This document shows, piece by piece, positions 5,861 through 31,635 of a stretch of 64,000 bases of DNA. How positions within the stretch are numbered: the first letter of the stretch is position 1; the number at the start of each line of letters is the position of its first letter. The notes beneath the pieces were generated by a model that was not told where the DNA came from, made no database searches, and saw nothing but the letters and a program-made list of their open reading frames with translations. A program made the position numbers and the translations under genes. Source of the stretch: Amphritea atlantica (GTDB lineage: Bacteria; Pseudomonadota; Gammaproteobacteria; Pseudomonadales; Balneatricaceae); contig CP073344.1 in NCBI GenBank assembly GCA_024397875.1, forward strand, positions 3,339,001 to 3,403,000, given 5' to 3'.

Positions 5861-7822
5861 TCAGGCGACTGCCCGGGCAGCATCCCGCCGGGCCTGTTTA
5901 CGGTAGCGGGGGTCGGTAGCCGCCAGTAACCCACCAGCGGTCATCAGTAAGCCGCCCAGCCAGAGCCAGCGAACAAAGGGTTTATGCTGTATCCGCACAG
6001 CCCAGGCGCCGTTCTCCAGCGGCTCACCCAACGCAACATACAGATCACGGAATAGCCCCGGATCGATATCGGCTTCGGTCATGACATTACCCCGGGCCGG
6101 GTAGAAACGCTTTTCCGGACGCAGTTCGCCATACAGCTCGCCCTTATAACTGACACGAATGATACCCATATCCGAGCTGTAGTTCGGCCCCTGCTTCTTC
6201 TGCGCGCCGAGAAACTCAAACTGGTATTCACTGAAACTAAGCACATCACCGGGCGCCATCCGCAGATCACGTTCTTCATTATAAGTGCTGACCATCAGCG
6301 CCCCAACGACAGTCACCGCAATACCCGTATGCGCCAGAATCATGCCAAAGTAGCTTCGGGACATACCCGATACAGCCGCTTTAAGGTTGCTCCGGCCAGC
6401 GACTTTTTTCCAGAAATCTCTGATACTGCTGAATACCACCCAGAACACCAGTGACATCACCCCGGCTACGGTCAGATTAAACACCTCCGCGTAAAAAGAC
6501 TGAACCAGCAGACCGGCAATCACACTGAGCAGTGCTGGCAACCACAGCTGCTTCAACAGGAAAACCACTGAGGTTTCCCGCCAGCGTGCAGCCACGCCAA
6601 TACCCAGGGCTCCCAGAATCAACAACATCAATGGAATAAAGAGTGAATTAAAATAAGGAGGACCTACTGAGATTTTACCCCAGCCCATCGCATCAACGAT
6701 CAGCGGATAGATGGTTCCCAGCAGTACCATCATGGCGGAAACCACCAGCAGAATATTATTCAACAGCAGTAAAGATTCCCGTGACAACAGAGCAAAACTG
6801 GATTCGCTCTTCACATTGCCCGCTTTAACCGCATATAGGATCAGAGAGCCACCAATCGTGATCACCAGTAACGCCAGGATAAAATACCCCCGATCCGGAT
6901 CAGACGCGAACGCATGCACCGATGTCAGCACCCCGGATCGTACCAGGAAGGTTCCCAGCAGGCTGAGGGAGAAGGCAAAGATAGCCAGCAATACGGTCCA
7001 GCTTTTAAACACGCCGCGTTTTTCAGTCACCGCCAGTGAGTGCACCAGCGCGGTACCCACCAACCATGGCATAAATGATGCGTTTTCAACCGGATCCCAG
7101 AACCACCAGCCGCCCCAGCCAAGCTCGTAATACGCCCACCAGCTGCCCAATAAGATTCCCAGTGTCAGAAAGGCCCAGGCAATATTGGTCCACGGACGGG
7201 ACCAGCGCGCCCAGGCGGAGTCAAGACGTCCGGTCAGCAGCGCCGCAATCGCAAATGCAAAGGCAACCGAGAAGCCTACATAGCCCATATACAGCATCGG
7301 CGGATGGATAATCAGGCCGATATCCTGCAGTAGCGGATTAAGATCGCCGCCCTCCGCTGGAAACTGAGGCAGGTGACGATCAAACGGACTCGATGTCATC
7401 AGGGTAAAGAGGGTGAAGCCCACCCCAACAATACCCATTACCGCTAACACACGGGAGACAATTTCCACTGGCAGATTCTGGCTTTTAAACGCAACAGCTA
7501 CTGTCCAGCCACTCAGAATCACAACCCACAGCAGCAATGATCCTTCATGCCCCCCCCAGATCGCACTTATCTTGTAATACCAGGGTAATAACGTATTCGA
7601 GTTGGTAGCAACATAGGCGACAGAAAAGTCGTCCACAACAAAGGCGTAGCCCAGACAGGTGATACTGATCGCCAGAAAGAAGAACGTCCCCACCGCCAGC
7701 GGCCGGGCATAGTTCATTAGCAATGTATTGCCAACAGACGCCCCTACCATCGGCACTACAGCAAGCAACAAAGACATACAGAGCGCCAGAATCAGCGCAT
7801 ATTGACCCAGTTCAGGAATCAT
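5861..7822 (-). CDS. ccmF: Haem lyase subunit CcmF
   Basis: Large polytopic membrane protein that attaches haem to CXXCH motifs of apocytochromes, taking haem from holo-CcmE. It is 653 residues, the normal family length, with about 15 hydrophobic segments. The WWD haem-handling domain is visible as GWGGWWFWDPVENASF near residue 235, flanked by conserved histidines. The C-terminal periplasmic domain ends with a last membrane segment and a basic tail. It lies 2 bases after the ccmE stop. Confidence 0.97.
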   Translation of the reverse strand: MIPELGQYALILALCMSLLLAVVPMVGASVGNTLLMNYARPLAVGTFFFLAISITCLGYAFVVDDFSVAYVATNSNTLLPWYYKISAIWGGHEGSLLLWVVILSGWTVAVAFKSQNLPVEIVSRVLAVMGIVGVGFTLFTLMTSSPFDRHLPQFPAEGGDLNPLLQDIGLIIHPPMLYMGYVGFSVAFAFAIAALLTGRLDSAWARWSRPWTNIAWAFLTLGILLGSWWAYYELGWGGWWFWDPVENASFMPWLVGTALVHSLAVTEKRGVFKSWTVLLAIFAFSLSLLGTFLVRSGVLTSVHAFASDPDRGYFILALLVITIGGSLILYAVKAGNVKSESSFALLSRESLLLLNNILLVVSAMMVLLGTIYPLIVDAMGWGKISVGPPYFNSLFIPLMLLILGALGIGVAARWRETSVVFLLKQLWLPALLSVIAGLLVQSFYAEVFNLTVAGVMSLVFWVVFSSIRDFWKKVAGRSNLKAAVSGMSRSYFGMILAHTGIAVTVVGALMVSTYNEERDLRMAPGDVLSFSEYQFEFLGAQKKQGPNYSSDMGIIRVSYKGELYGELRPEKRFYPARGNVMTEADIDPGLFRDLYVALGEPLENGAWAVRIQHKPFVRWLWLGGLLMTAGGLLAATDPRYRKQARRDAARAVA

Positions 7823-7824
7823 AA

Positions 7825-8286
7825 TTACTCGGCTCCCGTCGCGCGCATCTGTTCAGGCATCTTCCCCGCCTTTTTAAGCGCTTCAGCAACTTCCGGAGGC
7901 ATATAGTTTTCATCATGTTTGGCCAGCACTTCAACCGCCTCAAACACCCCTTCACTGTTCATCTCACCCTGTGCAACAATTCCCTGCCCCTCACGAAACA
8001 GGTCAGGCAGAATACCGGTAAAAGTCACTGTCACCTGATTGGCATAATCGGTCATATCAAACGTCACCTGCAGACTCTGAGGGTCACGCTTTACGCTGCC
8101 TTCAACCACCATACCACCGGCTCTGATACGGGTGCCTTCCGGCGCTTTATGCTCAACGATATCGGTCGGCGAGTAAAACAGATTAATATTCTGGTTCAGC
8201 GCATACATGGCCAGCCCTACTGCAACGGAGGCACCAAAAATGATAAAAAGTACGATAATCAGTCGCTGTTTACGTTTCGGATTCAT
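7825..8286 (-). CDS. ccmE: Periplasmic haem chaperone CcmE
   Basis: Carries haem covalently from CcmABCD to CcmF. The 153-residue product has one N-terminal membrane anchor (about 9-29) and an OB-fold beta barrel. The haem-binding loop [10 protein letters not shown] contains His124 (covalent haem ligand) and Tyr128. The C-terminal tail is short and flexible. The ATG overlaps the final base of the ccmD stop codon, indicating translational coupling. Confidence 0.97.
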
Positions 8287-8462
8287 TAGCGCTGTTTCTC
8301 CCTGCGAAGGCGGCGGGCCTGTTCACTAAAGATCTGACGCTTTTGCATCAGGGGGTTAACAATATTCATAACAATCACAATCAGTGCGATGGCATAACTC
8401 AGCCATACATAGAGGCCATGACCACCCATATCGATAAAGTCTGCAAACGATTCAAAACTCAA
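8286..8462 (-). CDS. ccmD: Haem exporter accessory protein CcmD
   Basis: A 58-residue single-span membrane protein that helps release holo-CcmE from CcmABC. It reads from a TTG at 8462, giving [15 protein letters not shown], then a membrane helix ([16 protein letters not shown]) and a basic tail rich in Arg, Lys and Gln, all typical of CcmD. A GAGGG ribosome site lies 8 bases before the TTG, and no ATG or GTG fits better. Position between ccmC and ccmE is exactly as expected. It is easily missed because it is short and has a TTG start. Confidence 0.9.
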
Positions 8463-8472
8463 GTTAATACCC

Positions 8473-9225
8473 TCAACCAGTAATCAGATCGCGCACCCAG
8501 CTGCTGCGACGCTCACGCTGGATAATTTCATTACGCAACCGCAGCATCATTACCACAGCAAAGAAACAGTAAAAACCGATCGCCATCACCAGTAAAGGCA
8601 CCCACATCTCTACAGGCATCGCCGGGCGTTCGGTCAGTGTAAAGGTGGCGGGCTGATGCAGTGTATTCCACCAATCCACCGAATATTTGATAATCGGGAT
8701 ATTCACCAGGCCAACCAGTGCAAGCACCGCGGTAGACTGAGCGGCAGTCCGCTCACTCTCGATAGCAGAGTTCAGCGCAATAATCCCCAGGTAGAGAAAA
8801 AACAGAATCAGCATAGAGGTCAGACGGGCATCCCATACCCACCATGCCCCCCAGGTAGGTTTGCCCCAAATAGCTCCGGTCGCCAGTGATAATACAGCGA
8901 TAGATGCACCGATCGGAGCACAGCATTTCGCTACCATATCGGCAACTTTCATCTTCCAGATCAGACCGATCGCACCTGCAACCGCCATCAGCATATAACA
9001 TGACTGTGCCAGGATAGAGGACGGCACATGAATATAGATAATCCGGAAACTATTGCCCTGCTGGTAATCAGCAGGGGCAAAAACAAGCGCCCAGACAGTA
9101 CCTGTCACTAACAGCAGTACTGCAGCCACGGCAAAGAAAGGTAGTAATTTACCGGTAATTTCATAACACCAGCGGGGAGAAGCCAGTTGATAAAACCAAC
9201 GTGGCATCCACTTCTTATCAGCCAT
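8473..9225 (-). CDS. ccmC: Haem exporter/handling protein CcmC
   Basis: Six-span membrane protein that loads haem onto CcmE. The 250-residue product contains the tryptophan-rich WWD motif WGAWWVWDARLTS between membrane segments 3 and 4, with conserved flanking histidines (HVPSS and TLHQPA). The length is normal for the family. It lies between ccmB and ccmD, 10 bases before the ccmD start. Confidence 0.96.
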   Translation of the reverse strand: MADKKWMPRWFYQLASPRWCYEITGKLLPFFAVAAVLLLVTGTVWALVFAPADYQQGNSFRIIYIHVPSSILAQSCYMLMAVAGAIGLIWKMKVADMVAKCCAPIGASIAVLSLATGAIWGKPTWGAWWVWDARLTSMLILFFLYLGIIALNSAIESERTAAQSTAVLALVGLVNIPIIKYSVDWWNTLHQPATFTLTERPAMPVEMWVPLLVMAIGFYCFFAVVMMLRLRNEIIQRERRSSWVRDLITG

Positions 9226-9245
9226 ATTTCAACCTTATCGGGGTC

Positions 9246-9974
9246 TTACCCACTTACACTAATTCTTAATGCGGCACCAATTGCCAGCGGTGCCATCACC
9301 AATCCGAGCGACAGCATCGCGCCCAGAATGGCAAGATACCCGTCCAGGGGCAACCCCGTCACTGCGCCCTGCACCGCCGCACTGCCAAATATCAGTACCG
9401 GGATATAGAGCGGCAACACCAGCAGTGAAATTAACACGCCGCCCTTTCGCAAACCAACGGTCAGCGCGGCACCAATGGCACCGATCAGACTCAGGGTTGG
9501 CGTGCCAAGCAACAAACTCAGTACCAACCCCCACATGCCATCTCCTGGCAAAAACAACATAACCCCTAACACCGGCGCCAGGAGTGTCAACGGTAAACCG
9601 GTCAGCATCCAGTGCGCCAGTACTTTTGCCAGCACAACCAGATAGAGTGGCTGGGGACTGAGTAAAATCTGTTCCAGTGTTCCATCCTCAAAATCAGAAC
9701 GGAACAGACTGTCCATCGACAGCAGCGTTGCCAGTAACGCAGCAACCCAGACCACACCCGGCGCCACATCAGCGAGGAAGGTTGGATCAGGGCTGACGCC
9801 CAATGGGAACAGAGTTGCGACCATCAAAAAGAAAATCAGCGGGTTCACCAGATCACTTTTCCGCCGGTATGAAAGTAACAGATCCCGCTTCAATGCACCC
9901 CAGAAAGGACCATCAACTTTGTATACATGGGCCATCGACTTGTCTGCCGACTGATTAGGCATACTATCGTTCAT
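9246..9974 (-). CDS. ccmB: Haem exporter permease CcmB
   Basis: Membrane subunit of the CcmAB ABC transporter that powers release of holo-CcmE. The product is 242 residues with six hydrophobic segments after the cytoplasmic sequence KRDLLLSYRRKSDLVNPLIFF (split here only for reading: KRDLLLSYRRK, then SDLVNPLIFF), a conserved CcmB hallmark. The usual length is about 220; the extra N-terminal residues may be real, or translation may begin at a later Met (MAHVYKVDG, residue 14). The ATG overlaps the ccmA stop by 4 bases. Confidence 0.94.
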   Translation of the reverse strand: MNDSMPNQSADKSMAHVYKVDGPFWGALKRDLLLSYRRKSDLVNPLIFFLMVATLFPLGVSPDPTFLADVAPGVVWVAALLATLLSMDSLFRSDFEDGTLEQILLSPQPLYLVVLAKVLAHWMLTGLPLTLLAPVLGVMLFLPGDGMWGLVLSLLLGTPTLSLIGAIGAALTVGLRKGGVLISLLVLPLYIPVLIFGSAAVQGAVTGLPLDGYLAILGAMLSLGLVMAPLAIGAALRISVSG

Positions 9975-10609
9975 AAAGTTCCCGCTAATTGATCAAGATT
10001 AAGCTTGCGAATCTTGTCCCCCATCACCAGTTCGTGATGGGTCGTCAGAATAACGGTACCGCCCTGTTCTGCATGGGCGGTAATCAGTGCCTCTTTCTCT
10101 GCCACCCCGCGCTTATCAATGGCGGTAAAGGGTTCGTCCAGAATCCATAACGGAGCACTGCTGAGATAGAGTCGCGCCAGACTTACACGGCGGTTCTGAC
10201 CGGCAGAGAGAGTATGACAAGGAACATCCTCATACCCCTTCAAGCCAACTTTAATCAGCGCATTATCCAGCTTACTCAGGTCCATCTCCGGGTGCAAAGA
10301 CGCATACCACTGCAGATTTTCCCTCGGAGTGAGTACCGCTTTCACGCCGGGCTGATGTCCAAAATAGAGCAATGATTCACGATAACTCTCTGCACAGTTA
10401 TCCAGATGCTCTCCCTGCCAGTAAATATCGCCTTCAAAATGACGCGATAAACCACTGAGGATACGCAACAACGTGGTTTTACCACTGCCGTTCTGCCCCT
10501 CTATCTGGATCACTTCACCTGCATTGACCTCAAAGCTGAGCCCTTCAAACAACACCCGCTCATCCCGCTCGCAGAACAGATTGTCAATTTTCAGTCTTGG
10601 TGTGGACAA
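9971..10609 (-). CDS. ccmA: Haem exporter ATPase CcmA
   Basis: Cytoplasmic ABC ATPase of the CcmAB complex. Walker A is GQNGSGKTT, the signature is LSAGQNRRVSLARLYL and Walker B is LWILDEPF. A TTG at 10609 is preferred over the upstream in-frame ATG at 10690. The TTG has GAGGG 7 bases before it and gives the usual family length (212 residues), while the extra 27 residues of the longer form look unlike CcmA and overlap a likely -10 element (10680-10685). It is the first gene of the ccm operon. Confidence 0.93.
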   Translation of the reverse strand: MSTPRLKIDNLFCERDERVLFEGLSFEVNAGEVIQIEGQNGSGKTTLLRILSGLSRHFEGDIYWQGEHLDNCAESYRESLLYFGHQPGVKAVLTPRENLQWYASLHPEMDLSKLDNALIKVGLKGYEDVPCHTLSAGQNRRVSLARLYLSSAPLWILDEPFTAIDKRGVAEKEALITAHAEQGGTVILTTHHELVMGDKIRKLNLDQLAGTL

Positions 10610-10679
10610 CAGAACACCCTCAAAAAACAAAACAGGCAAACTCGCCTTTATAATTAGCAATACCCGCCGAAAGCAAGGC

Positions 10680-10709
10680 ATTATATACAAAATAAACAGC
10701 CGTAGTGCA
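10680..10709 (-). promoter_or_regulatory. Candidate promoter of the ccm operon
   Basis: Read on the minus strand, a perfect TATAAT (10680-10685) lies about 70 bases before the preferred ccmA TTG start. The -35 region (around 10703-10709, TGCACT or GCACTA) is a weak match, so an activator or an A/T-rich context may matter. This is inferred from pattern only. Confidence 0.35.
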
Positions 10710-10762
10710 TACCCGGGCCAAAAGAACTATATCTACTATCAAACCGCACAGGAAAACTGATT

Positions 10763-12322
10763 GTGCTTAACCCACTGAGCATACAAAACCTGCAAACCAG
10801 TGCCGGGAAAACACTTTCGGCCGCTGAGCTTGTTCGCACCCTGCCACTGAACTCCCCGACCCGGATAACCATCCAACAGGTCACTCCTGATGCGGTACGC
10901 CCCAATCAATTTAAGTTGCAGGTACAGCTCGGCAGTCAGTTATATCAATTGAAAAGTAACCAGTCACTGCCTCCCGGCAGCACTGCCACATTAACCCGTA
11001 CCCCTGCGGGACAGCTGCTCCTGAGCAGCGCAGCCCCTCAGCCTGCAACCGGACTGCAAGCCCAGACATTTACCCAGCCCGCCACGACCCAGTCACAGCC
11101 GATACAGCAAAGCGGAGCCATATCCCCGCCAGGCAATCACCGGACCATCGCCCCTGATCAGCCTCCCATCGTACAAATCAAAGGACGCGATCAACCGAGC
11201 CAACAGGAACAGCCCAGCCAGCAACGACCGGGGACTCAGTCATCGCAATCCCCACCAACCGCAACGGCGACGATTCCCCCTCGCTCCCTGACCGGACTAA
11301 ACCGGTTATTACCGATCAATCAACCGGTACTGGCGACGCTCTCGCTGGCGATAAAAGCCCGTGCGGGTGAGGGAAACCTTATTGCCACTATCAACGGTCG
11401 CACGCTCCCCCTGACAACGCCACCGCCGCTGCCCTTTGACGGTAAAGTATTGCTGATCAGGACCGCCAGCGATCAGGTTCAGATACATGCCCTGACATCA
11501 CCGGCACAGAATCAAAATCTCAATCACAGCATCAGCGACGCGTTACGCTATGTATTACCGGCACAACAGCCGGTAGCCAACAGTCTGATAAAGCTGCAAC
11601 AACTGAACAGCCGTGCCGGCGGCGAAAAAAGCCCGATAAACAGCATTATCAGTTCACTGATTAACCTGTTCGGGGTAAAAACAGAGTCTGCCACCGCGGG
11701 ACAACCCGGCGTTCAGCAAAACCTTTTAAATGGCGGTCTGTTCACCGAGCGTAATCTGGCCGATCCCCGCAGTCAGATCCCCGCCGGAGAGATGAAACAT
11801 CAACTGAACCAGCTATTACAGCAGGCCGACAAGTTACCGGAACAGGCACGACAGCAGCTGCATGAGCTGGTGAAAGGTTTACTGAACCGGGTCACCGGCA
11901 ATCAGTTGGAAAGCATTCAGAATACCCGGATTAACAGTGATGGCGGCCTGGAGCGTTTTTTTGCCCTGGACCTGCCGGTCAGGAACGGGGAGCGGCTGGA
12001 TAATGTTGAGCTGAAAATATCAGAGCACCGCAAACAGCTGGCCGAAGATGAGTGGCAACGGCTCTGGCGGGTCCGGCTTCACTTCGACCTTCTGGAGCAG
12101 GGCACCATCGATGCGGAACTGTTGCTGGAACAGGAGCATCAGATAACCGCGCATTTCTGGTGCAGCCTCGCGACGACTGCAGAGGAACTGAACGGAAAGT
12201 TACCCGACTTTAATCGCCAGTTACACCTTCAGGGCTACAGCATTAATTCGGTTCACTGCAGTCAAGGCGCAGCCCCCAAACCGACCAATCAGGTCGAACA
12301 GCTCATCGATGTGATCACCTGA
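10763..12322 (+). CDS. FliK-like flagellar hook-length control family protein
   Basis: The 519-residue product starts at a GTG with AGGA 8 bases upstream. The N-terminal two thirds are Gln/Pro/Thr-rich and low in complexity. The C-terminal part (about 395-505) fits the FliK C-terminal (Flg_hook) domain, with alternating beta-like segments (LDNVELKISEHRK, WRVRLHFDLLEQGTIDAELLL) and an invariant-looking ITAHFWC strand. It is the second FliK-type gene in the window (the canonical one is at 32299) and is followed at once by a FlhB C-domain paralogue. The same pair lies next to ccmA in Pseudomonas, so this is a conserved arrangement. The function is not established; a link to export-substrate switching is inferred from the two families. 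Confidence 0.8.
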   Translation: MLNPLSIQNLQTSAGKTLSAAELVRTLPLNSPTRITIQQVTPDAVRPNQFKLQVQLGSQLYQLKSNQSLPPGSTATLTRTPAGQLLLSSAAPQPATGLQAQTFTQPATTQSQPIQQSGAISPPGNHRTIAPDQPPIVQIKGRDQPSQQEQPSQQRPGTQSSQSPPTATATIPPRSLTGLNRLLPINQPVLATLSLAIKARAGEGNLIATINGRTLPLTTPPPLPFDGKVLLIRTASDQVQIHALTSPAQNQNLNHSISDALRYVLPAQQPVANSLIKLQQLNSRAGGEKSPINSIISSLINLFGVKTESATAGQPGVQQNLLNGGLFTERNLADPRSQIPAGEMKHQLNQLLQQADKLPEQARQQLHELVKGLLNRVTGNQLESIQNTRINSDGGLERFFALDLPVRNGERLDNVELKISEHRKQLAEDEWQRLWRVRLHFDLLEQGTIDAELLLEQEHQITAHFWCSLATTAEELNGKLPDFNRQLHLQGYSINSVHCSQGAAPKPTNQVEQLIDVIT

Positions 12323-12334
12323 AACGGAGATAAT

Positions 12335-12598
12335 GTGAACAAAAAAACGGAAGAGTATCAGAAAGCGATCGCCCTGAATTACGATCATCAGGGCGCGCCA
12401 AAAGTGACGGCCAAAGGTCAGGGCATCATTGCAGAGCAAATTATCCGGCTGGCCCGGGAGCATGATGTACATATTCACGAAAGCCCCGAACTGGTAGAAG
12501 TGTTACTGCGTCTGGAACTGGGCGATGAGATACCGGAGAGCCTGTATCGTGCCATTGCCGAAATTATCGCCTTCACCTATAACCTTAATAACGAATAA
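12335..12598 (+). CDS. FlhB C-terminal-domain-like protein (FhlB type)
   Basis: An 87-residue protein that resembles only the cytoplasmic FlhB-CC domain: ALNYDHQGAPKVTAKG aligns with the sequence just after the cleavage site of FlhB, and GDEIPESLYRAIAEIIAF with its end. It has no membrane segments and lacks the NPTH autocleavage tetrad that the full FlhB at 26745 keeps. The start is GTG, 12 bases after the stop of the FliK-like gene, so the two form one operon. Homologues can substitute for the cleaved FlhB C-fragment in some bacteria; whether this one does is inference. Confidence 0.85.
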   Translation: MNKKTEEYQKAIALNYDHQGAPKVTAKGQGIIAEQIIRLAREHDVHIHESPELVEVLLRLELGDEIPESLYRAIAEIIAFTYNLNNE

Positions 12599-12653
12599 GC
12601 TCACAAGCAGGCGGCGCGCAAAAAGACTCAACAGAAAGAGATAAAGACAGTGC

Positions 12654-13046
12654 TCAGTTGCGATTATCCGGGGCTGCAATCTCTTTATGCAGCAGCGCCA
12701 TTAGCTCAGCTTCAGGCCGCCCGATACCACAATTCTTAACCAGATCATCAACATCGGCCCCCATCTCCATCAACCGGGCCGCCTGATTATACGCCAAAAC
12801 CCCCGGATCACGATTCGCCAGCTCTTGCTGTTTTTCAGCGGTAATATTGAGCTTATTTTCCACATCCATCAACCGGTGTCCCATGCCGATAGAGCTGCTG
12901 GTCAGCGCCTGAATCTCATTACGCAGCACATTGATGAGCGCTTCATACTGGCGCTGGTGCTGGTGCAACTGTCGGCGGGCGTTGATTGAATATCCAATCG
13001 ATACGCATGAAACGATGGCGACCACCGCCAGAGCTAACCAGATCAT
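12654..13046 (-). CDS. DUF2802 family protein, end of chemotaxis operon
   Basis: The 130-residue product has one N-terminal membrane segment (about 2-20), a Gln/Glu-rich coiled-coil stretch (about 25-80) and a small helical C-terminal region (YNQAARLMEMGADVDDLV, then CGIGRPEAELMALLHK) that looks like a winged or helix-turn-helix fold. This matches the DUF2802 proteins found at the end of polar-flagellar chemotaxis operons. It begins 12 bases after the CheW-like gene. No biochemical function is known to me. It converges with the FlhB-like gene. Confidence 0.75.
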   Translation of the reverse strand: MIWLALAVVAIVSCVSIGYSINARRQLHQHQRQYEALINVLRNEIQALTSSSIGMGHRLMDVENKLNITAEKQQELANRDPGVLAYNQAARLMEMGADVDDLVKNCGIGRPEAELMALLHKEIAAPDNRN

Positions 13047-13058
13047 CTTATCTCCTTA

Positions 13059-14227
<1,169 letters not shown>

Positions 14228-14231
<4 letters not shown>

Positions 14232-15004
14232 CCTCTGCCCCGCTCCGCCAGGCCGCGTAAAATACGGATATATGCTTGCACACCAGACATCGTCAGATCC
14301 AGCTCAGACGGAGTAATTCCTTTAGCACTGGCGGTAATAAATTTACTGTCCACCGGCACCACAGACGCAGCAATATTCTCAGCAAAGCGCTGATGCAACT
14401 CGCGTAAGCAGCTTACCGAAGCGGGAATAGTACGATCATAGAACGTCGGAATCAGGGTATAGGTTAACTGCCGTTTTCTCGCCCGGTTGATCATCGTAAT
14501 GGTTCGCAACATTCGCTCCAGCCCTTTCAACGCCAGAAACTCAGTCTGTACCGGTACCAACAGATGCCCGCAGGCAGCCAGTGCATTGATCATCAGCACA
14601 CCCAGCACCGGAGGACTGTCAATGACGACATAGTCATAGCGGTCTTTTACCAGCCGTAACGCTTTCGCAACCTGCAGCCCCATGCCCTCCTGGCCAACCG
14701 ATTTTCGCTCCAGTGTCGCCAGCGCAGTCGTCGCCGGAATCAGATCGATACCGCTGTTTGATGTCGGCATCAGCAACGGCTCAAGCAGTCTCATAGTGAC
14801 TTCACTACCCGGCTGAAACAGGTCATAGACGCTATTCTCAAGTTCATCCGGATCATATTTAAAATAGCTGGTCATCGAACCATGAGGATCGAGATCCACC
14901 AGCAACACGCGCTGGCCCGCATCAGCCAGCAAACCCGCTAAAGTAACTGCGGTTGTGGTTTTTCCCACCCCGCCTTTCTGATTAGCTACCGCCCATACCT
15001 GCAT
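14228..15004 (-). CDS. ParA-family ATPase for chemotaxis array positioning (ParC-like)
   Basis: A 258-residue MinD/ParA ATPase with a deviant Walker A (KGGVGKTT, residues 10-17), the DLDPHG switch motif near residue 38 and a Walker B-like VVIDSPP. In Vibrio and Pseudomonas the ParA encoded within the che operon (ParC) sets the polar placement and inheritance of chemoreceptor arrays with ParP. Here it sits between motD and the ParP-like gene, overlapping both by 1-4 bases, so the same role is likely. It is distinct from FleN at 22077. Confidence 0.88.
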
Positions 15005-17916: not shown

Positions 17917-20055
17917 TCAACTGGCATAGGCCTTCAGCAGACTCGGAATATCAACTATCAGAGCGATCCGGCCATCACCCGTAATAGTCGCTCCGGAAAG
18001 ACCCGGCGTGCCATGCAAAACAGATCCCAGAGGCTTGATAACAACCTCCTCCTGTCCAACTAACTGGTCGACCACAAAAGCAACCTGCATAGTACCAACA
18101 TTGGTAATCACTACATGGCCATTTTGTGGCAGAGGATCTTTTTCAAAGCCCTTCATCAGCCAGCGTTTCAGATGAAATAGCGGCATCGCTTTATCGCGAA
18201 CAATAATGACCTGCTGACCATCGACCATATTAATCTGGGTCAGATCAAGATTGAAAATCTCATTAACATTAACCAGTGGCAAGGCGAACGCCTGACTTTC
18301 CAGCAACACCATCAGAGTCGGCATGATCGCCAGAGTCAGCGGCACCTGAATTTCAATTCTGGATCCCATCCCCAGAGTAGAATCAACATCCAGCTTACCA
18401 TTGAGCTGAGATATTTTGGTTTTCACCACATCCATTCCGACACCTCGACCCGAGACGTCAGAGATCTGCTCTTTGGTGGAGAAGCCCGCAGCAAAAATCA
18501 GGTTATAACACTCATGATCACTCAGCCGGGCGGCGGCTTCCTGATCCAGCATTCCCCGCTTAACGGCGAGCGCCCGGAGCTTATCCGGATCCATACCGGC
18601 ACCATCATCTTCGATAATCAGAAGAATGTGATCGCCTTCCTGCTCTGCGGAGAGCAGCACATGACCCTCTCTCGGTTTATCATTCCTTTCGCGAACATCA
18701 GGCTCTTCAATACCATGATCGATCGCGTTTCTGACCAGGTGAATCAGTGGATCTGCCAGCGCTTCAACCAGGTTTTTATCCAGATCGGTATCCTCTCCCC
18801 GCAGCTCAAGGTTAACCTCTTTATGTAGCTGACGAGAGAGATCACGCACCAGGCGCGGGAAGCGACCAAACACTTTTTTAACCGGCTGCATACGGGTTTT
18901 CATCACCGACATCTGCAGGTCAGCGGTCACCATATCGAGGGACCCCAGCGCCTTCGTCATCTCCCCGTCATCCAGCTCGGCTCCCAGACGAACCAGCCGG
19001 TTACGCACCAGCACCAGTTCACCCACCATATTCATGATCTGATCCAGCAGACGGGTATCAACCCGGACATTACTTTCCGCAACTGGCTTGTTTTGGGGCT
19101 TAGCTGCCGCAGCGGGGTCAGCCGGCGCCTGCGCGACTGCAACCGTAGTATTTGCCGCAGCAAAGGCCCCTTCCCCTTTGGACTGCAGATCATCCAGAAG
19201 ATGTTCAAATTCATCGTCAGTGATCAGATCACCGCCCACCGATGGGGCCGTCGCTACCGGTTTTAGCGAATCCGCAGCAGGGGCCGCGCGAACAGGACCT
19301 CCCAGCAACTGATCAAACTCAGCATCGGCACTATTATCTACTGTGCCAACCTGACTGAGGCCTGGTGCGCCATTGGGCCCATGCAGCTGGTCCAGCAGAT
19401 CATCAAACTCATCTTCGGTAATCAGGTCGGAAACCGGCGCTGCAGCTGGAACAACCGTACCCCCTGGCGCGCCATTGGGCCCATGCAGCTGGTCCAGCAG
19501 ATCATCAAACTCATCTTCGGTAATCAGGTCAGATCCGGCGGCTGCATTTCCAACTTTAGAGCTGTCTGCAACATCAAGACCCGATATTAATTTATCAAAC
19601 TCAGCACTGACCGCCGCATCGCTATGCACTGTAGCAGAAGAACTTACCGCTGCCACAGGAGTAGCCTGACCAGCAGCCATGGCATTTAACCCCGCCAGCA
19701 ACTGCGGATCAACCGGATCGGGAAACTCCCCCTGCTGCACACACTGAAACATTGAATTTATTGAATCCAGCGCCTGCAACACCAGATCCATCAACTCCGA
19801 TGAAACCTTAAGTGCATCATTTCGCAGCTGGTCAAACAGATTTTCAGCGCTATGACAGCAATCAACCATCGGGTCGAGCTGAAGAAAGCCGGCTCCCCCT
19901 TTAACGGTATGAAAACCACGAAAAATAGCATTTAACAGCTCCCTGTCTTCAGGGTGCTGCTCAAGATCAACCAACTGTTCAGACAGCAGTTCCAAAATCT
20001 CCCCGGCTTCAACTAAAAAGTCTTCCAGTATTTCCTGATCAACATTCAAGGACAT
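17917..20055 (-). CDS. cheA: Chemotaxis histidine kinase CheA with five linker repeats
   Basis: A 712-residue kinase. The Hpt (P1) domain is at about 1-105 with phospho-acceptor His49 (FHTVKGGAGF). The dimerisation domain (P3) is at about 328-390, the ATPase (P4) at about 395-565 with N, G1 and G2 boxes (HLVRNAIDHGIEEP, DDGAGM, GRGVGMD), and the CheW-like P5 at about 570-705. Between P1 and P3 there is no evident P2 fold but an Ala/Pro-rich linker with five short motifs at about 151, 176, 210, 246 and 276. The best two read DLITEDEFDDLLDQLHG. They resemble the CheY-binding peptides of FliM and CheZ. The gene lies 12 bases after cheZ. Confidence 0.96.
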   Translation of the reverse strand: MSLNVDQEILEDFLVEAGEILELLSEQLVDLEQHPEDRELLNAIFRGFHTVKGGAGFLQLDPMVDCCHSAENLFDQLRNDALKVSSELMDLVLQALDSINSMFQCVQQGEFPDPVDPQLLAGLNAMAAGQATPVAAVSSSATVHSDAAVSAEFDKLISGLDVADSSKVGNAAAGSDLITEDEFDDLLDQLHGPNGAPGGTVVPAAAPVSDLITEDEFDDLLDQLHGPNGAPGLSQVGTVDNSADAEFDQLLGGPVRAAPAADSLKPVATAPSVGGDLITDDEFEHLLDDLQSKGEGAFAAANTTVAVAQAPADPAAAAKPQNKPVAESNVRVDTRLLDQIMNMVGELVLVRNRLVRLGAELDDGEMTKALGSLDMVTADLQMSVMKTRMQPVKKVFGRFPRLVRDLSRQLHKEVNLELRGEDTDLDKNLVEALADPLIHLVRNAIDHGIEEPDVRERNDKPREGHVLLSAEQEGDHILLIIEDDGAGMDPDKLRALAVKRGMLDQEAAARLSDHECYNLIFAAGFSTKEQISDVSGRGVGMDVVKTKISQLNGKLDVDSTLGMGSRIEIQVPLTLAIMPTLMVLLESQAFALPLVNVNEIFNLDLTQINMVDGQQVIIVRDKAMPLFHLKRWLMKGFEKDPLPQNGHVVITNVGTMQVAFVVDQLVGQEEVVIKPLGSVLHGTPGLSGATITGDGRIALIVDIPSLLKAYAS
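19361..19530. repeat. Near-identical 68-base duplication within cheA linker
   Basis: Two 68-base copies (19361-19428 and 19463-19530) differ at one position and are 102 bases (34 codons) apart. They encode two identical motif copies followed by GPNGAPG. Conservation at synonymous sites points to a recent in-frame duplication. Confidence 0.92.
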
Positions 20056-20067
20056 TTGCTTTACCTT

Positions 20068-20886
20068 TCAAAAGCCGAGGCTGGAAAGAAGATCGTCAAC
20101 GTCATCCTGGCTGGATGCGACCTCCCCCTGATTGCGGCCCCTCATTTGAGGGCCTTCTGCTTTTACCACTGACACCCCTTCAGCTTGCTCAGCTTCAGGA
20201 TCTGACAGATCATTTTGCATCGCCGGGAGTGCGCCAAGGTTATTGACCCTGGCAGCCACTTCCATCAACCCAACCAATTTATCTTCAATATCTGCAACTA
20301 ACTGAATAACCCGCTTGATCAGCTGTCCGGTAATATCCTGATACTCCTGACCTAGCAAGATACCCGTCAGTCGCTCTTTTAATGCGGCCAGCATTGCGGA
20401 ATGGCCATCGTCATAACGACAAGCTTTGTTATACAAGGCTTCTAATTGTGGGTGGTCGGATTTAAGTGCCGACAGATCTTCGATCAGCTCCTGACGACGC
20501 AGGAACTCTTTTTCAATGAGGCCAACCTGTTGCAACGCCTCATCGACCTCATCAATCGTTTTATGGGCGTTACTCTCCGTCAGCTCAATAACATAGGATA
20601 AGCGTTCACTTGCATCAGCTATCGAGGCGATATGTTGTTTCGAGTCCTGCAACAACTCTGTCGAACTGACATCCTCAGTAAAACCGACAATCGCATTATG
20701 AACCGCCCGCGTAAGCGTACCCACCTCATGATAGAGTGCCTGATGTCGCATCTCATTCAGTTGCTGAACCAACTCCATCGCATGAGGAAGTTCGCCCCGG
20801 CTGAGCAGCTCAACAAGCTGCTCAGCGCGCGCCTGAAGTTCGGCCTCAAAACTGGGCTGATCCCGGTATAAATCAAAGTCAGACAT
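20068..20886 (-). CDS. cheZ: CheY-P phosphatase CheZ
   Basis: A 272-residue helical protein that dephosphorylates CheY-P. The catalytic segment EYQDITGQLIKRVIQ carries Asp184 and Gln188, matching the E. coli Asp143 and Gln147 pair. The C-terminal tail ends SSQDDVDDLLSSLGF, the conserved CheY-binding helix. It is somewhat longer than E. coli CheZ (214) in the N-terminal and linker regions. It follows cheY by 9 bases. Confidence 0.95.
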   Translation of the reverse strand: MSDFDLYRDQPSFEAELQARAEQLVELLSRGELPHAMELVQQLNEMRHQALYHEVGTLTRAVHNAIVGFTEDVSSTELLQDSKQHIASIADASERLSYVIELTESNAHKTIDEVDEALQQVGLIEKEFLRRQELIEDLSALKSDHPQLEALYNKACRYDDGHSAMLAALKERLTGILLGQEYQDITGQLIKRVIQLVADIEDKLVGLMEVAARVNNLGALPAMQNDLSDPEAEQAEGVSVVKAEGPQMRGRNQGEVASSQDDVDDLLSSLGF

Positions 20887-20895
20887 TGACGCCTC

Positions 20896-21282
20896 CTAGC
20901 CTTGAAGGCGTTCAAATATCTTATCGATTTTCTCTTTCAGTACTCCAGCAGTAAAAGGCTTAATGACGTAGCCATTTACACCCGCCTGGGCAGCCTCAAT
21001 TATCTGCTCGCGTTTTGCCTCAGCCGTAACCATCAGAATTGGGATATGACGCAGTTCAGGATCAGCCCGAACTGTTTTCAAAAGATCGATACCGGACATC
21101 TTTGGCATATTCCAGTCGGTAACCAGAAAGTCGATACTCCCGCCTTTCAGAATAGGTAGCGCCGTTGCACCATCATCGGCTTCAACAATATTGCTAAAAC
21201 CCAGATCCCGCAGCAGATTCTTAATAATCCGGCGCATTGTTGAGAAATCATCTACTACCAGAATTTTCATGTCTTTATTCAA
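20896..21282 (-). CDS. cheY: Chemotaxis response regulator CheY
   Basis: A single receiver domain that binds FliM when phosphorylated. The phospho-acceptor Asp is in FLVTDWNMP (residue 56 in this numbering), with the acidic pair in LVVDDFSTM, Thr in MVTAEAK and Lys in VIKPFTA. A TTG at 21282 is the likely start because a strong AGGAGGG lies 6 bases upstream. A longer frame from GTG 21300 would place that ribosome site inside the coding sequence. The resulting [12 protein letters not shown] start also matches Vibrio CheY. A further ATG is at 21270. Confidence 0.95.
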
Positions 21283-21336
21283 GACAATCCCTCCTAACAC
21301 TCTCTCTGACGATGAAAAATAACTTCAGGTACTCAC

Positions 21337-30660: not shown

Positions 30661-31635
30661 TTAATCATTTTTAACCCGGCTAATAATTTGTACCGCCAGA
30701 TTCCCACGGGATGTACCCAGCTTACACTTAAAAACCGGCACTCTGGCCGCCTTCAACTGCAGAGTATCAGAAATATCGATAGGGATAATATCCCCGGCCT
30801 CCAGCTGCATAACATCTCTCAACTTCATTTTACGTTCGGCAACAATCAGGTCCAGATTAATCGGTGCACCCAGCATGTCACGCTTCAGGGACGTCAGCCA
30901 TTGCTCATCCAGCTCCTCCTCTACCGGCTTATAACCAGAGATCAGAATATCCCGGATAGGCTCCAGCATTGAGTAGGGCATCGTCACGTGAAACTCGCCG
31001 GTCCCCCCTTCCATATCAACTTGAAAGCTGCTTACGACTACCACTTCTGACGGATTGATCACATTTGCCATCGCCGGGTTTACTTCGTGTCCGAGCACTT
31101 CGAACTTAAGCGGCATGACCGGCTCCCAGGAGCCTTCCAGGTCTATAAAAAACTGACCAATCACCTTATTAATCAGACGAATCTCGGTCGGAGTAAACTC
31201 GCGACCCTCTATTTTTGCGTGCCGGCCATCCCCGCCAAAAAAGCCATCAACAAGCTTAAACACCAGCTTGGCATCCATCACCAGCAACGCGGTACCGCGC
31301 AGAGGAGTCACACGCAGAAGATTGATACTGGTCGGCACATAAAGGGTATGAATATAATCGGAGTACTTCATGATCTGTACGCCGCCAACCGAAACATCGG
31401 CGTTATTGCGCAACAGGTTAAACAGAGATATCCGGGTATGACGGGCAAAACGCTCGTTAATCATCTCAAGCGTCGGCATTCGGCCACGAACTATTCGTTC
31501 ATGGCTGGCCAGATCATAAGTTTTGACCGCGCCCTCATCCTCGACAACGCCCTCTTCGGTCTCAATATCTCCATCATCCACGCCATGCAACAGCGCATCG
31601 ATTTCATCCTGAGAGAGCAGGTCTTTGACTGTCAT
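30661..31635 (-). CDS. fliM: Flagellar motor switch protein FliM
   Basis: A 324-residue C-ring protein. The N-terminal peptide DLLSQDEIDALLHGV is the CheY-P docking segment. The middle CheC-like domain contains the FliG-binding GGxG loop (FFGGDGRHAKIEGREFT), and the C-terminal SpoA domain (about 245-320) packs with FliN. It lies 13 bases after fliL. The same kind of acidic docking peptide recurs in CheZ and CheA in this window. Confidence 0.97.
   Translation of the reverse strand: MTVKDLLSQDEIDALLHGVDDGDIETEEGVVEDEGAVKTYDLASHERIVRGRMPTLEMINERFARHTRISLFNLLRNNADVSVGGVQIMKYSDYIHTLYVPTSINLLRVTPLRGTALLVMDAKLVFKLVDGFFGGDGRHAKIEGREFTPTEIRLINKVIGQFFIDLEGSWEPVMPLKFEVLGHEVNPAMANVINPSEVVVVSSFQVDMEGGTGEFHVTMPYSMLEPIRDILISGYKPVEEELDEQWLTSLKRDMLGAPINLDLIVAERKMKLRDVMQLEAGDIIPIDISDTLQLKAARVPVFKCKLGTSRGNLAVQIISRVKND

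Follow-up and report, generated by a model that had tools for sequence, protein, structure and literature searches.

The minus strand of the window (the whole stretch of 64,000 nucleotides of Amphritea atlantica DNA analysed here) carries a gene cluster for chemotaxis and flagella in the order flhA-flhF-flhG-fliA-cheYZA-cheB-motCD-parC-parP, which is the gene order of F6 systems. The domains of CheA, CheZ, CheY, ParC and ParP are named by Pfam, and we take flhA, flhF, flhG, fliA, cheB, motC and motD to be these genes by recognition. The CheA of the window is of the F6 type, as assigned from this gene neighbourhood. Its Pfam domains are Hpt (residues 8-99), H-kinase_dim (328-387), HATPase (435-574) and CheW (581-709). 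Between the Hpt domain and P3 lies a linker that encodes five copies of a 27-nt core, starting at positions 19194, 19302, 19392, 19494 and 19584, with start-to-start distances of 90-108 nt. The corresponding motif cores begin at CheA residues 151, 181, 215, 245 and 281, in agreement with the original prediction, which had placed five motifs at about residues 151, 176, 210, 246 and 276. The coordinates of the linker features and of the possible partners are collected in Table 1.

Table 1. Features of the window related to the CheA linker and its possible partners.
Feature	Position in window	Strand	Remarks
parP-like gene, rival ligand	13059..14231	minus	C-terminal CheW-like (AIF) domain; Pfam CheW 252-382
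parC-like ATPase gene	14228..15004	minus	Pfam AAA_31; adjoins parP
cheA	17917..20055	minus	712 aa; domain order Hpt, motif linker, P3, P4, P5
Motif copy 5, DLITDDEFEHLLDDLQSKGEGAF	19162..19230	minus	residues 276-298; 40.0 bits
Motif copy 4 (weaker), SADAEFDQLLGG	19297..19332	minus	residues 242-253; 18.7 bits
Motif copy 3, same 23 residues as copy 2 (DLITEDEFDDLLDQLHGPNGAPG)	19360..19428	minus	residues 210-232; 38.4 bits
Motif copy 2, DLITEDEFDDLLDQLHGPNGAPG	19462..19530	minus	residues 176-198; 38.4 bits; tandem duplicate
Motif copy 1 (degenerate), VSAEFDKLISGL	19576..19611	minus	residues 149-160; 27-nt repeat member at 19584
CheZ C-terminal peptide, SQDDVDDLLSSLGF	20071..20112	minus	Pfam CheZ; modest profile match of family C-termini
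cheY, proposed ligand	20896..21300	minus	Pfam Response_reg
FliM N-terminal CheY-docking peptide, LLSQDEIDALLHGV	31579..31620	minus	in profile comparison, FliM N-termini come closest to the CheA motif

According to a profile built from 313 distinct motif copies (17-mers), from which the bit scores of the table were obtained, the CheA of the window holds three strong copies, a clear but weaker one and a degenerate one. The degenerate copy, AEFDKLISGL, scores below 2 bits, and relatives keep the first copy better, as in the case of NTPNDEFEMLLGDLAG in Marinobacterium. A tandem duplication with a period of 102 nt comprises copies 2 and 3, which do not differ at any of their 23 residues. In the nearest relative drawn, the counterparts of these two copies are unlike each other, so that those of the window have probably been duplicated or homogenised recently. 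As for the linker in which they are embedded, Ala makes up 22% and Pro 11% of the residues of F6 linkers, and Trp, Cys and Tyr are almost absent. FoldIndex gives 0.089 for CheA residues 126-327, similar to the Hpt stretch (0.091), and does not support disorder; it is from its composition that the linker is read as probably disordered.

The motif is not restricted to the window. The loci used for its survey comprised the CheA of Gammaproteobacteria genomes together with 80 named loci, the best 80 of at least 592, in 78 of which the linker was readable. Once five duplicate loci had been dropped and loci lacking a readable linker excluded, a profile scan at 8 bits detected at least one copy in 149 of 153 linkers: one copy in 5, two in 12, three in 55, four in 76 (the mode) and eight, the maximum, in one. 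Counting by eye in the named loci gives four copies for most Pseudomonas and three for all 3 Shewanella and for 8 of 10 Marinobacter. By eye, the CheA of one genome (G033; L009 and L067) has eight copies, the majority of which read alike, as ITDDEFENLLDELQG. The four linkers with zero copies (L115-L118) belong to CheAs with a core identity of just 41-46%, which are much more divergent and are taken to be other CheA classes. A phylum-wide draw added 20 CheAs with a similar outcome: 2-4 copies in each of the 16 whose core identity is at least 51%, and none in the four at 44-47%; in this draw 77 of 397 genomes match at E<=1e-100, and the two of these 77 that fall outside the class both lack the motif. 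The absence of the motif from four short-linker CheAs (L308-L311) is counted against a docking role.

The consensus of the copies is (D/E)I(T/S)(D/E)xEF(E/D)xLLDxLHG. They are spaced by a median of 41 residues (range 23-69, n=357), and the final copy stands at a median distance of 60 residues from P3. A chance or low-complexity origin was rejected, as shuffled linkers give a mean of 0.0023 copies per linker at 8 bits, against 3.31 observed. A strict peptide pattern, composed after CheA and FliM had been seen, is found in 154 of 164 CheA ORFs, in none of the 1130 ORFs of nine other labelled families and in 2 of 3996 other ORFs of at least 150 aa, one of the two being the FliM of the window. At the DNA level, a degenerate pattern yields 25 matches in the own genome versus 11 for a backward control; three of the 25 lie in CheA and one in FliM, and the remainder are judged to be chance. 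In addition, the copies within a CheA resemble each other more than those of different genomes (11.95 versus 10.44 of 18 positions within the ordinal classes first, middle and last; 0 of 2000 shuffles; 48 genomes), as expected from one shared partner or from gene conversion.

The domain that the motif linker seems to replace is P2. In E. coli, P2 binds CheY with a Kd of 0.5 uM, and the isolated Hpt domain (P1) with just 900 uM (PMC5705603). In a large survey, more than half of the CheAs have been reported to lack P2 and to present instead an extended unstructured stretch from Hpt to the dimerisation domain, on the basis of HHpred and AlphaFold (Berry et al., PMC10782961); some CheAs reported as P2-less still work, and E. 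coli P2 is described there as not essential for phosphotransfer (PMC10782961). Given that it is P2 that confers CheY binding in E. coli, such CheAs are left without a known docking site, and the difference between the two reported affinities suggests that a P2-less kinase would profit from another one. In Pseudomonas putida, what is presumably this region of CheA has been treated as a Pfam-predicted CheY-binding domain (PMC11978298).

The original prediction had described the linker as lacking an evident P2 fold, and this description holds. Pfam finds no P2 model in the linker of the window at E<=1, nor among the 25 Pfam families listed of 70 for the N-terminal halves of 44 F6 CheAs. Pfam also misses the domain at the P2 position of other CheAs (PF09078 appears in 1 of 18, at E 0.14), so its silence says little by itself, and profile-profile comparison was used instead. 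A profile of the P2-position domain from 9 CheAs of other types recognises 9 others with a probability of 100, and the 10 other-type CheAs that lack the short signature with a probability of 99.5; against F6 linkers, in contrast, no match is obtained (probability 2.0, and 0.5 for the other half). Signature patterns of this domain are found in 0 of 149 F6 linkers. Conversely, the motif occurs in 0 of 28 other-type CheAs, in contrast to its presence in 149 of 153 linkers. The proposal of repeated motifs standing in place of P2 is supported. By profile comparison, then, no folded P2-type domain appears detectable between Hpt and P3 of F6 CheAs. That the domain of the other-type CheAs is P2 is deduced from its position, size and hydrophobic pattern, and searches of PDB and Pfam with it returned no credible confirmation of this identity. 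Compared with P2, the F6 linker occupies the same position between Hpt and P3 and would have the same role, but P2 is folded, while no folded domain is detectable in the linker.

The C-terminal peptide of CheZ is a known type of CheY-docking peptide that prefers CheY-P, and FliM, CheZ and E. coli P2 all use the alpha4-beta5-alpha5 face of CheY. The EIDAL(L) sequence of FliM is the CheY-P site (PMC6946799, PMC9126983), and FliM-type peptides prefer CheY-P (PMC9126983). An hhalign comparison was made between 203 CheA 24-mers, taken as a profile, and 28 distinct N-termini of FliM or 61 distinct C-termini of CheZ. The score for FliM is 18.0 and exceeds that of each of 318 control windows, drawn from nine families encoded in the cluster (one of them CheZ); the best control (16.9), from internal CheZ windows, comes close to the FliM level. 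The CheZ C-terminus reached 11.3, and 7 of the 318 controls score as high. The likeness to known docking peptides claimed in the original prediction therefore stands for FliM and is weaker than claimed for the CheZ tail. With a BLOSUM-smoothed profile, FliM ranks second among the 271 other ORFs of the window, and its score is reached by 49 of 8666 ORFs; the window ORF ranked above FliM reads like an acetyl-CoA synthetase and was judged to be a chance match. A PDB search with a motif peptide gave no match.

The hydrophobic positions 0, +3, +4 and +7 are common to the CheA, FliM and CheZ peptides. The CheA motif shares with FliM the spacing h-(S/T)-x-x-(E/D)-h-(D/E)-x-L-L-x-x-h and with CheZ the spacing h-D-D-L-L-x-x-L, and in terms of sequence it has the pattern of a docking helix of the FliM/CheZ type. 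However, the FliM and CheZ peptides are single and sit at a chain end (N-terminal and C-terminal, respectively), whereas the CheA motif is internal and present in 1-8 copies; it also differs from FliM in having F for I/V, an Asp after LL and an extra L-H-G tail. By eye, the FliM tail shows no consistent pattern relative to the CheA tail across the 28 FliM N-termini. Among Pfam models, SHOCT matches 43 of 44 F6 N-halves (with 19.5 bits for the CheA of the window, below the cut-off of 27) and EF-hand_7 matches 6 of these 44. As these matches and the high scores of the internal CheZ windows show, the pattern is in part that of any well-capped helix.

The partner that has to be weighed most carefully against CheY is ParP. 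In Vibrio, a region of CheA between P2 and P3, the CheA-LID, binds the AIF domain of ParP, a contact for which W305 of ParP is required (PMC7534058, PMC5706961), and the LID is said in a review to exist only alongside ParC/ParP (PMC7534058). ParC and ParP of P. putida are also under study (PMC12918733). According to this alternative, the copies would serve to attach CheA to the ParC/ParP system at the pole by binding the CheW-like AIF domain of ParP, with no part for CheY. Several observations are consistent with it. The motif linker lies, like the LID, in CheA and N-terminal of P3; parC and parP are both present in the window; and in the alignment consensus of 44 F6 N-halves the motif is the sole conserved block after Hpt, from which it seems probable that these copies constitute the LID. 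All 30 AIF domains aligned share a Trp, a possible counterpart of W305 of Vibrio.

Genomes that lack ParP argue in the opposite direction. In a draw of 370 genomes, 147 hold an F6-like CheA (E<=1e-105), and 15 of these 147 show no ParC at E<1e-45. The AIF profile detects ParP in two of the 15 (G215 at 5e-32 and G398 at 4e-44), which were excluded; G174 was added from the draw of relatives, giving 14 ParP-less genomes of 10 families in which AIF matches are at the level of CheW (3e-8 or weaker) or missing. ParC is likewise undetectable in 13 of them; in G174, the parC position is taken by a gene with weak similarity to ParC (27%, 8e-16), so that this genome is counted as ParP-less only. All 14 keep the motif: four copies in G001; three in G226 and G387; two in G010, G026, G174, G191, G208 (whose CheA is split by a frame break), G315 and G402; and one in G022, G025 (weak, 14.7 bits), G206 and G376. 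At least one copy with an HG tail is present in 10 of the 14. The gene order of G001 is otherwise intact (cheYZAB-motCD-cheW). CheY is encoded in the locus of 13 of the 14, the locus of the other one (G191) ending at a contig edge; in G022 and G206 (one family; L110 and L205), cheZ is also absent from the che cluster, which is the region that was examined.

To the question of whether the motif tracks only ParP and not CheY, these genomes answer in favour of CheY. ParP cannot be the sole reason for the motif, and the rule that a LID exists only with ParC/ParP, as worded in the review, fails for this motif. A role confined to ParP is thus unlikely, and the difference from the Vibrio CheA-LID is precisely the persistence of the motif where ParP is not detected. 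Nevertheless, ParP may use some of the copies where it is present. Copy number is lower in its absence (median 2, versus 3 with ParC or ParP; Mann-Whitney p 0.001-0.002, the related genomes in this test not being independent), and against 16 rows of similar divergence the difference has a p of 0.10.

We consider that the best explanation is a replacement of P2 by FliM-like CheY-docking peptides, perhaps shared with ParP where this protein is present, a candidate role to which we assign an even chance. In this mechanism, an Ala/Pro-rich and probably disordered tether would sit in place of P2 in F6-type CheAs of Gammaproteobacteria and would present a short, capped amphipathic helix, usually repeated three or four times; each repeat would dock on the alpha4-beta5-alpha5 face of CheY. 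Several weak sites would provide avidity and raise the local concentration of CheY beside Hpt and P4, as P2 would do. After phosphotransfer, CheY-P would depart to FliM, the bearer of the same kind of peptide. Where ParC/ParP occur, some of these copies may also be recognised by ParP, by way of the CheA-LID contact described in the literature, and the placement of the array would then be coupled to the tether.

The main difficulty for this docking role is that FliM-type peptides prefer CheY-P and the kinase must load CheY. The CheA version may have lost this preference, or the array may hold the product near the pole. The modest match of the CheZ tail, the partly generic helix pattern, the deficit of copies in ParP-less genomes, the weak ParC-like gene of G174, the working of some CheAs reported as P2-less and the published binding of the Vibrio LID to ParP also count against docking, as does the loss of the motif tail in one family (f54; 3 genomes, L209, L210 and L212). 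In this family, all copies have changed the tail LHG to (N/Q/A)(Q/M)R, keeping the EF-x-LL core and losing the hydrophobic residue at +7. The private changes of its CheY include E93S and N104D; just 4 of 21 are on the docking face, so they are not concentrated there, and a co-variation of the motif with CheY is unsupported. A co-variation with CheZ was also rejected: in G010, CheZ reads IL and the two CheA copies read VL, but one locus (L105) has an odd CheZ together with a normal CheA.

Two other alternatives do not involve CheY. The copies could act inside CheA, docking on its own domains or on neighbouring kinases to regulate the kinase or the packing of the array. This improbable alternative is compatible with the presence of the motif in all 149 F6-like linkers regardless of their neighbours, with the similarity to SHOCT and with the homogenisation of the copies, but it leaves the likeness to FliM and the exchange with the P2-position domain without a reason. 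It is also improbable that the copies bind an ATPase of the ParA/MinD type (FlhG or ParC) for polar placement or flagellar assembly: FlhG has been reported to act via the FliM N-terminus (PMC12826062), and 13 of the 14 ParP-less loci have an FlhG-like ORF upstream of CheA (with 31% identity in L123; L207 ends at a contig edge), but the 13 genomes without ParC speak against this ATPase as the only partner.

The original interpretation as a whole is partly supported: the copies, their conservation, the lack of a detectable P2, the likeness to the FliM N-terminus and the survival of the motif where ParP is not detected are observed, and docking on CheY is the proposed role. A more far-reaching version of this role can be put forward only tentatively, and we regard it as rather doubtful. 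According to it, an entire class of kinases would have swapped P2 for multivalent peptides that mimic the flagellar switch, kinase and motor would be competitors for a single face of CheY, the amount of CheY held at the pole would be tuned by the number of copies (1 to 8), and ParP would use some of the copies.

Among the open-access papers listed for CheA, P2 and docking motifs, none was seen to describe this motif; subscription papers, the 2014 LID paper among them, may print an alignment of it. CheAs of the type described here include those of Pseudomonas and Shewanella, and more than half of the surveyed CheAs have been reported as P2-less (PMC10782961). If CheAs of this F6 type hold a conserved docking array, the way in which P2-less kinases find CheY becomes directly testable with short peptides. 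In that case, the published ParP-binding LID and a CheY-docking site may also be the same sequences, which would link array placement to signalling.

Some further features of the cluster concern ParP and its surroundings. An AIF-profile search of the own genome gives a sole other match, at G000:C1:1938343. No cheW ORF of at least 100 aa follows parP on the minus strand between positions 12657 and 13059 of the window; a DUF2802-like ORF comes after parP, and several relatives show the order parP-cheW-DUF2802. In another genome (G012, locus L318, positions 6419-12914), motC, motD, parC and a CheW-like gene adjoin a motif-less CheA of 43% identity; the F6 CheA of G012 is encoded elsewhere. The ParP linker of the window contains a long run of Glu-Pro dipeptides at about positions 13524-13650. 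The N-terminus of this protein (positions 14160-14231) holds a short motif of its own, of the Y-L-x-x-x-L type (KEYLDALL in the window), which appears close to the N-terminus in 90 of 108 ParP-like ORFs and is a candidate for contact with ParC or for dimerisation.
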